Below are positions 6,201 through 9,200 of a stretch of DNA of 64,000 bases, one piece after another. Within the stretch, counting starts at the first letter, position 1. Every line of letters starts with the position of its first letter. The notes beneath the pieces are model-generated. The model did not search any database. It saw nothing but the letters and a program-made list of their open reading frames with translations, and had not been told where the DNA came from. Origin of the DNA: Ramlibacter sp. Leaf400 (GTDB lineage: Bacteria; Pseudomonadota; Gammaproteobacteria; Burkholderiales; Burkholderiaceae_C); NCBI RefSeq assembly GCF_001424545.1, contig NZ_LMQL01000010.1:362673-426672 (forward strand), given 5' to 3'. Made by a program: the position numbers and the translations under genes.

Positions 6201-9200
6201 CCAGGTGCCCGAGGCGCCCGGCACCTTGGCCTGGCCGCCCAGCTTGCCTTCCACGCCCACCTCGCGCGCCACCGTGGTCACCTGGTCGGCGAACGTGGCC
6301 AGCGTGTCGGTCATGGAGTTGATGGTCTCGGCCAGCGCGGCGATCTCGCCCTTGGCCTCCACCGTCAGCTTCTGCTGCAGGTCGCCGTTGGCCACGGCGG
6401 TCACCACCTTGGCGATGCCTCGCACCTGCGACGTCAGGTTGCCGGCCATGAAGTTCACGTTGTCCGTGAGGTCCTTCCAGGTGCCGGACACGCCCTTCAC
6501 CTGTGCCTGGCCGCCCAGGCGGCCCTCGGTGCCCACCTCGCGCGCCACACGCGTCACTTCCGAGGCGAACGAGGACAGCTGGTCCACCATCACGTTGATG
6601 GTGTTCTTCAGCTCCAGGATCTCGCCCTTCACGTCCACCGTGATCTTCTTGCCGAGGTCGCCCGCGGCCACCGCCTTGGTCACGTCGGCGATGTTTCGCA
6701 CCTGGGCCGTCAGGTTGCCGGCCATGAAGTTCACGTTGTCGGTCAGGTCCTTCCAGGTGGGCCACCGCCTTGGTCACGTCGGCGATGTTTCGCACCTGGG
6801 CCGTCAGGTTGCCGGCCATGAAGTTCACGTTGTCGGTCAGGTCCTTCCAGGTGCCGGCCACGCCCTGCACGTCGGCCTGTCCGCCCAGCTTGCCTTCGGT
6901 GCCCACCTCGCGCGCCACCCGCGTCACTTCCGACGCGAACGATCGCAGCTGGTCCACCATGGTGTTGATCACGTCCTTGATCTGCAGGATCTCGCCGCGC
7001 ACGTCCACCGTGATCTTCTGCGTCAGGTCGCCCATGGCGATGGCCGTGGCCACCTTGGACACGTCGCGCAGCTGCACCGTGAGGTTGGAGGCCATGGAGT
7101 TCACCGACTCCGTCAGGTCCTTCCAGGTGCCGGCCACGCCCTGCACGTCGGCCTGGCCGCCCAGGCGGCCCTCGGTGCCCACCTCGCGCGCCACCCGCGT
7201 CACTTCCGCGGCGAACGACGAGAGCTGGTCCACCGTGGTGTTGATCACGTCCTTGATCTGCTGGATCTCGCCGCGCGCTTCGACGGTGATCTTCTGGGTC
7301 AGGTCGCCGGTGGCGATGGCCGTGGCCACCTTGGACACGTCGCGCAGCTGCACGGTGAGGTTGGAGGCCATGGAGTTCACCGACTCCGTCAGGTCCTTCC
7401 AGGTGCCGGCCACGCCCTGCACGTCGGCCTGGCCGCCCAGCTTGCCTTCGGTACCCACCTCGCGCGCCACGCGCGTCACTTCCGCGGCGAAGGACCGCAG
7501 CTGGTCCACCATGGTGTTCACGGTGTTCTTCAGCTCCAGGATCTCGCCCTTCACGTCCACCGTGATCTTCTTGGACAGGTCGCCGTTGGCCACCGCCTTG
7601 GTCACGTCGGCGATGTTGCGCACCTGGGCGGTCAGGTTGCCGGCCATGAAGTTCACGTTGTCGGTCAGGTCCTTCCAGGTACCCGCCACGCCCTTCACGT
7701 CGGCCTGGCCGCCCAGCTTGCCTTCGGTGCCCACTTCGCGCGCCACGCGCGTCACTTCGGAGGCGAACGAAGACAGCTGGTCCACCATGGTGTTGATGGT
7801 GTTCTTCAGCTCCAGGATCTCGCCTTTCACATCCACCGTGATCTTCTTGGACAGGTCGCCCGCGGCCACCGCCTTCGTCACGTCGGCGATGTTGCGCACC
7901 TGGGCCGTCAGGTTGCCGGCCATGGAGTTCACCGAGTCGGTCAGGTCCTTCCAGGTGCCGGCCACGCCCTGCACGTCGGCCTGGCCCCCCAGCTTGCCTT
8001 CGGTGCCCACTTCGCGCGCCACGCGCGTCACCTCAGAGGCGAAGGACCGCAGCTGGTCCACCATGGTGTTGATGGTGTTCTTCAGCTCCAGGATCTCGCC
8101 CTTCACGTCCACCGTGATCTTCTTGGAGAGGTCACCGGCCGCCACGGCGGTCGTCACGTCCGCGATGTTGCGCACCTGGGCCGTGAGGTTGGACGCCATG
8201 AAGTTCACCGAATCGGTGAGGTCCTTCCAGGTGCCCGCCACACCCTGCACGTCGGCCTGCCCGCCCAGCTTGCCTTCGGTACCCACTTCCCGCGCCACGC
8301 GCGTCACTTCGGAAGCGAACGAGGACAGCTGGTCCACCATCACGTTGATGGTGTTCTTCAGTTCCAGGATCTCGCCCTTCACGTCCACCGTGATCTTCTT
8401 GGACAGGTCGCCCGCGGCCACCGCCTTGGTCACGTCGGCGATGTTTCGCACCTGGGCCGTCAGGTTGCCGGCCATGAAGTTCACGTTGTCGGTCAGGTCC
8501 TTCGGCCACCGCCTTGGTCACGTCGGCGATGTTTCGCACCTGGGCCGTCAGGTTGCCGGCCATGAAGTTCACGTTGTCGGTCAGGTCCTTCCAGGTGCCG
8601 GCCACGCCCTGCACGTCGGCCTGGCCACCCAGCTTGCCTTCCGTACCCACTTCGCGCGCCACGCGCGTCACTTCCGAGGCGAAGGACCGCAGCTGGTCCA
8701 CCATCGTGTTGATGGTGTTCTTCAGCTCCAGGATCTCGCCCTTCACGTCCACGGTGATCTTCTTGGACAGGTCGCCGGCCGCCACGGCGGTCGTCACCTC
8801 GGCGATGTTGCGCACCTGGGCCGTCAGGTTGCCGGCCATGGAGTTCACCGAGTCGGTCAGGTCCTTCCACGTACCGGCCACGCCTTGCACGTCGGCCTGG
8901 CCGCCCAGCTTGCCTTCGGTGCCCACTTCGCGCGCCACGCGCGTCACTTCGGAGGCAAAGGACCGCAGCTGGTCCACCATGGTGTTGATGGTGTTCTTCA
9001 GCTCCAGGATCTCGCCCTTCACGTCCACCGTGATCTTCTTGGACAGGTCGCCGGCCGCCACGGCGGTCGTCACCTCGGCGATGTTGCGCACCTGGGCCGT
9101 GAGGTTCGAGCCCATGGAGTTCACCGATTCGGTCAGGTCCTTCCAGGTGCCGGCCACGCCCTGCACGTCGGCCTGGCCGCCCAGCTTGCCTTCCGTACCT

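Follow-up and report, generated by a model that had tools for sequence, protein, structure and literature searches.

AskA and AskB of Myxococcus xanthus and Amb07 are presented as group-III-like poly-HAMP hybrid histidine kinases in the part of PMC7643160 that deals with them, where partial SpoIIID-like and HTH_6 matches are also given for the HAMP region of AskA and AskB. A second precedent concerns genome assembly. In the relevant sections of Kelley and Salzberg (2010, PMC2864568), neighbouring contigs that share their ends are set side by side unmerged, producing false duplications that can affect genes; the cause described there is haplotype divergence in diploid genomes, tested with mate pairs. 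The locus analysed here lies in a 64,000-nucleotide stretch of Ramlibacter sp. Leaf400 (the window, C10:362673-426672) and touches on both subjects: in the assembly, a poly-HAMP kinase gene is spread over three reading frames by two exact tandem duplications, referred to as sites A and B.

Layout of the kinase gene and its duplications

The gene and its parts are as follows (G013 is a congeneric genome):
3216-10267, minus strand: poly-HAMP hybrid histidine kinase gene, with ATG at 10267 and stop at 3216-3218, in three frames as assembled
9420-10267, minus strand: N-terminal part of the kinase, ahead of the regular units; conserved, dN/dS about 0.09 versus G013
6202-9419, minus strand: eleven regular HAMP units of 276 bp (92 residues), from anchor spacings, sites A and B being six unit lengths apart
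3219-5989, minus strand: C-terminal GAF, HisKA, HATPase_c and receiver domains; conserved, dN/dS about 0.14 versus G013
1141-3231, minus strand: downstream hybrid kinase frame (receiver-GAF-HisKA-HATPase_c-receiver), whose mechanical start falls within the last bases of the poly-HAMP gene

Profile matches to HAMP and HAMP_2 repeats, GAF, HisKA, HATPase_c and Response_reg are distributed along the gene from 10267 to 3216 on the minus strand. The eleven regular units (HAMP and HAMP_2 profiles) exceed the five HAMP repeats above which a kinase is counted as group-III-like, and the histidine kinase core (HisKA and HATPase_c) is accompanied by receivers (Response_reg). No transmembrane segment was detected in the kinase: the maximum 19-residue mean hydropathy over its five segments, duplicated blocks excluded, was 1.5, and three congeners gave maxima of 1.50-1.51, the usual threshold for a transmembrane segment being 1.6. 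Judging from its domains and from described homologues, the gene product is predicted to be a soluble group-III-like hybrid histidine kinase in which a relay of HAMP repeats would feed the GAF, kinase and receiver domains, and it belongs to a known kind. Both the N-terminal part (dN 0.045, dS 0.477 versus G013) and the kinase part (dN 0.037, dS 0.269) are under strong purifying selection, a signal that a very recent break would leave unaltered. The position of the hybrid kinase frame 1141-3231 directly after the poly-HAMP gene suggests that the two form one operon.

The anchor-to-anchor spacings of the HAMP array are 276, 94, six times 276, 88 and three times 276, so that 94 and 88 stand out as irregularities in an otherwise regular array. 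They correspond to the two duplications:
6666-6759, no strand: site A, copy 1 of an exact 94-bp duplication (self-match)
6760-6853, no strand: site A, copy 2 (self-match); one of the two copies is very probably an assembly artefact
8415-8503, no strand: site B, copy 1 of an exact 88-bp duplication (self-match run of 89 bases)
8504-8591, no strand: site B, copy 2 (self-match); here too one of the two copies is very probably an assembly artefact

At site A the period is 94 and the self-match run covers exactly 6666-6759, that is 94 bases, with 0 bp of homology beyond the copies. At site B the period is 88 and the run 8415-8503 comprises 89 bases, with 1 bp of homology beyond the copies; the borders of the array 8415-8591 are therefore ambiguous by one base. 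At both sites the copies are exact, head to tail and without any divergence, and no N separates them (the whole window is free of N). An N as a join mark would be helpful for an artefact reading but is not required by it. Tandem Repeats Finder (TRF) recovered both arrays; of its 21 rows, no others have a period of 60-130. Elsewhere in the window, 25253-25458 is a low-complexity stretch of imperfect tandem repeats, GAAGCCAAGGCCGACAAGAAG being an example of the units.

Self-match and TRF agree with the original prediction of head-to-tail duplications of 94 bp (6666-6853) and 88 bp (8415-8590), each of length 3n+1, and its observation that the two blocks are nearly identical also holds, with 88 of 88 bases in common. 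It had further proposed that each duplication shifts the frame. Five test segments of the gene indeed contain 0 stops when read in frame 0 ahead of the duplications, in frame 1 between them and in frame 2 past them, which is the pattern predicted by two successive 3n+1 shifts. The predicted length without both extra copies, 2289 codons or 6870 nt, was likewise reproduced, 7052 - 94 - 88 giving 6870, or 2290 codons including the stop; this length is arithmetic and not that of a constructed shortened sequence.

Sites A and B share 131 exact bp when the duplicated block is counted once per site, and all other exact repeats in the array measure 87 bp or less. The exact matches between the sites are 6655-6753 = 8405-8503, 6760-6879 = 8504-8623 and 6665-6759 = 8503-8597, and define two spans:
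6655-6879, no strand: site A span of the 131-bp repeat, in which the left arm (6655-6759) enters 105 bp and the right arm (6760-6879) 120 bp
8405-8623, no strand: site B span of the 131-bp repeat, in which the left arm (8405-8503) enters exactly 99 bp and the right arm (8504-8623) 120 bp

Together, the duplications thus take up the two copies of the array's longest exact repeat and no other place. The arms account for their lengths, with 105 + 120 - 131 = 94 for site A and 99 + 120 - 131 = 88 for site B. The second copies begin at the identical base of the repeat at both sites, while the ends of the first copies differ by six bases.

Recurrence of the signature in the assembly and among congeners

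Exact two-copy tandem duplications with a period of 40-499 were scanned for in 69 loci of the same genome (1,361,583 bases), a scan that would miss duplications crossing a locus border. These loci hold 1,360,278 distinct positions, or 29.7% of the 4.59-Mb genome of 15 contigs (C1 to C15), the window included. Nine duplications were found, two in the window and seven elsewhere:
C9:392003: 98 bp, a single N and the same 98 bp
C9:436407 (L165:16407): 88-bp exact duplication
C9:446772 (L166:6772): 75-bp exact duplication
C1:1098: 99 bp, a single N and the same 99 bp
C2:1292 (L168): 141 bp, an N and a stretch with the adapter fragment GCTCTTCCGATCT, then the same 141 bp
C11:5076: 99-bp duplication with one base between the copies
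C11:5306: 99-bp exact duplication

Three of the nine carry a single N between their copies (C9:392003, C1:1098 and C2:1292), and these look like explicit joins of overlapping ends. At C2:1433-1448, the N and the Illumina adapter-like stretch between the 141-bp copies represent an adapter remnant left in the assembly. The two duplications on C11 are located just upstream of a 16S rRNA gene (L215:3513-5043, minus strand), in the interval that separates it from a tRNA gene at 5540-5611, likewise on the minus strand. In eight of the nine cases, another site in the genome matches the unit, or no fewer than 85 of its bases, at 100% identity; the exception is C11:5076, for whose unit no other genomic copy was found. 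Positions that start a 75-mer recurring in the sample number 1,789 of 1,360,278 (0.13%, with the duplications themselves counted). The C9:392003 locus holds further copies of its unit, 285 bp apart.

The units at C9:436407 and C9:446772 are members of dispersed repeat families of about 88 bp (at least 60 matches) and 75 bp (at least 20 matches), respectively. Among the matches listed, members of the two families lie 34-141 bp apart at nine places compared by eye, and four pairs of 75-bp copies have starts 92-103 bp apart. By these spacings, the two families may constitute one composite mobile or REP-like element. An array of the heptamer AGGGGCT, about 74 bp long, at C15:137277 (L155:17277) is a possible slippage-prone locus.

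Six of the 15 contig starts (C1, C3, C4, C6, C7 and C8) coincide with some other place in the sample over exactly 98-99 bases, and the block duplicated at C1:1098 is also the one with which C6 begins. No such 98-99-base overlap was found within the sample for the other nine: the starts of C2, C9, C13 and C14 have no match of 30 bases or more in the sample, and the remaining matches measure 31 (C11), 86 (C5), 103 (C12), 123 (C15) and 183 bases (C10). The six starts are consistent with de Bruijn assembly at a word length of about 99 bases, a value read from the starts themselves. The background to this reading is the behaviour of de Bruijn assemblers at contig ends: SPAdes contig ends overlap by exactly K, and certain scaffolders mark a negative gap by a single n. 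The opening 183 bases of C10 have an identical counterpart close to the end of C15, and C10:720 repeats the 123 bases with which C15 begins; by these identities at their ends, C10 and C15 overlap yet are unjoined (L129, L158, L149). Scattered single Ns occur at the starts of C1 (224-995, L167), where they lie in a putative elongation factor Tu gene, and of C10 (166-616, L129), and are perhaps collapsed near-identical copies.

The sample contains 23 N runs, of which six have shared sequence on both sides (C9:392003, C1:1098, C2:1292, C10:873, C9:392821 and C4:13898). The other 17 show no shared 20-mer across the run and are of other origin. Since most N runs lack such a 20-mer, and the joins at A and B lack an N, an N alone is not the mark of such joins.

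The same scan was applied to congeners. No exact two-copy tandem duplication was present in the single-contig genome G007 (21 loci, 413,001 bases), in G013 (21 loci, 413,001 bases) or around the array in ten other congeners (10 loci, 124,010 bases). The signature is recurrent in the genome's own assembly (nine in 1.36 Mb) and was found nowhere in 0.95 Mb of congeners. Equal rates would place all nine in the own sample with a probability of 0.589^9, about 0.009 by arithmetic, a figure to be read with the control genomes contributing only 0.95 Mb, less than the own sample, and having possibly been assembled by other methods. The genome also encodes a paralogue of the kinase, on C15, with an unbroken frame of 2388 codons and a longest exact repeat of 91 bp. 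Neither this paralogue nor any of 12 congener loci contains an exact tandem duplication.

Kinase-part matches of 79% identity or more were obtained in 18 of 24 same-genus genomes, among the matches listed; excluded from the 18 were G016, whose best match covers only residues 492-1172 at 73%, and five others with weaker or paralogue-like best matches. By this protein, G013 is the closest of the matches listed (94%). Among these matches, the 18 orthologues can be divided into three groups: (i) one open frame, 2059-2610 codons stop to stop (11 genomes); (ii) a gene cut by a contig end (6 genomes: G001, G002, G003, G004, G008 and G010); (iii) a gene broken over several frames (G014). In the last of these, a genome of two contigs (L120, G014:C1:1366000-1379500), frames of 628, 383 and 599 codons are followed by a kinase part of 1231, and no exact tandem duplication was found in the split orthologue; its break is either a sequencing error or a real pseudogene.

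The original prediction had called for repeat numbers in relatives to be compared, and the eleven unbroken congeners vary in whole units only, with 8, 10 or 11 regular HAMP units each. Lengths from the conserved start fall on a 92-residue ladder (G013 2013, G024 2290 and G009 2294), on which the own gene without its extra copies (2289, by arithmetic) also falls; its assembled form misses the ladder by part of a unit. Compared with the own gene, G013 lacks three whole units, apparently from the middle of the array. The whole-unit counts and the ladder indicate that the gene changes by whole units among these species. A six-unit super-repeat (long exact repeats spaced by 1656 bp in several congeners) was rejected as a candidate, since mean unit identity by lag gave no consistent peak at six.

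Probable assembly artefact and competing explanations

From these sequence comparisons, we consider it almost certain that both duplications are assembly artefacts and not features of the organism, in which the gene is most likely intact. The original prediction had leaned towards unmerged contig ends, and this reading has gained support from the same signature elsewhere in the assembly, the one-N joins, the 98-99-base overlaps of contig starts and the 131-bp repeat. The copies lie within an exact repeat that exceeds the assembly word (131 bp versus about 99, the latter taken from the contig starts), and the copy borders at A and B would be contig ends. The observed 131-bp repeat, the other duplications and the 98-99-base overlaps can be connected by a series of presumed assembler steps. 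A de Bruijn assembler with words of about 99 bases would pass the exact repeats of up to 91 bp in the gene and its paralogue, and would not pass the 131-bp one. Contigs would have ended inside the 131-bp repeat at both sites, and paired reads would have set these ends adjacent to each other. The scaffolding or gap-closing step would then have overlooked that these ends overlap and linked them head to tail, leaving a duplication as long as the reach of the left contig into the repeat plus that of the right contig minus 131. The absence of duplications from the paralogue, with its repeats of no more than 91 bp, matches what this explanation predicts. That both lengths are 3n+1 is a coincidence.

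A uniform word length, with all four arms entering the repeat by 99 bp, was tried and rejected: only the left arm at B does so. Since the other three reach 105, 120 and 120 bp, an extension or gap-filling step must be assumed. These three arms count against an artefact, as do the joins at A and B without N, C11:5076 without another copy, the nine contig starts without a 98-99-base overlap, the multi-copy nature of the C9:392003 locus, and G014, which is broken without a duplication.

A mixed origin, with a single real duplication beside an artefactual one, or a true locus of some other structure, such as one with more six-unit blocks between the repeats, is very unlikely. By reasoning, short reads cannot count the blocks between copies of a direct repeat that the assembly has not resolved, and eleven units is for this reason a minimum, the number of six-unit blocks between A and B being beyond their reach. 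Against these readings, none of the eleven congeners, which range from 8 to 11 units, exceeds eleven, and sites A and B bear the same signature.

Real and recent tandem duplications, generated in the HAMP array through replication slippage or through unequal exchange and leaving a pseudogene, are exceedingly improbable. The array is repetitive, its unit number differs among congeners, and the copies are exact, as would be expected of very recent events; slippage was also the other option of the original prediction. It is disfavoured because homology beyond the copies amounts to only 0 bp at the junction of A and 1 bp at that of B. Moreover, the 11 unbroken congeners vary by whole 276-bp units, no exact tandem duplication occurs in the 12 congener loci or the own paralogue, and the signature recurs across the genome, three times with an N join. 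Two independent events, one in each copy of the 131-bp repeat, would have a probability of about 4e-4 by arithmetic, under random placement in the 3-kb array. Purifying selection on the N-terminal and kinase parts also speaks against a pseudogene, although a very recent one would match it. A related conjecture, to which we give hardly any credence, is that the living strain has both partial duplications and that repeated exact partial-unit duplication at the longest internal repeat serves as a reversible off-switch of the kinase.

The chance that the duplications are real and tolerated, through frameshift decoding, two or three separate polypeptides or phase switching, is negligible: the three frames are open over their own segments and beyond (the middle one for 1754 codons), but long wrong-frame ORFs are common in this window of 69% GC, and the 12 congener loci contain no such arrangement.

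Consequences and comparison with known systems

With both duplications most probably made in assembly, the kinase should not be labelled a pseudogene or a split gene on the basis of this assembly. More broadly, assemblies seem prone to break at arrays of near-identical HAMP units: 6 of the 18 congeneric orthologues, among the matches listed, are cut by a contig end. Among the best 80 public loci, many of them metagenome bins, 16 have a match that starts within 5 bases of a contig end, a count given with no control gene compared. If such arrays do break assemblies, draft genomes may give inflated counts of broken sensor kinases. Exact two-copy tandem duplications about as long as the assembly word, whether or not one N is present, provide a simple check for such joins.

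The likeness to the case of Kelley and Salzberg, within the parts of PMC2864568 drawn on here, is that contig ends with common sequence, left unmerged, make a false duplication. Unlike the haplotype divergence treated in those parts, the cause here would be an exact intragenic repeat exceeding the assembly word, in a bacterium.

As regards the protein, weak matches to the profiles named SpoIIID-like and HTH_6 (PF12116 and PF01418) occur in the own kinase; no single stretch passes, and HTH_6 is below the cut-off. Several unrelated coiled-coil profiles also match it weakly, and the SpoIIID-like and HTH_6 resemblance to AskA and AskB is weak for that reason. Unlike AskA and AskB, the present kinase has a GAF domain between the HAMP array and the kinase, as seen in its domain profiles. 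In fungal group III hybrid kinases, the HAMP unit is about 90 residues long and the units are fewer than the eleven regular ones found here, the likeness to them being one of description and not of sequence. Like NIK1, Bos1 and TcsC of that fungal group, as characterized in part of PMC7643160, the kinase combines repeated N-terminal HAMP domains with the lack of a transmembrane region. The same part of PMC7643160 gives AskA and AskB a long N-terminal poly-HAMP region followed by kinase and receiver domains, and in this architecture the present gene resembles them.
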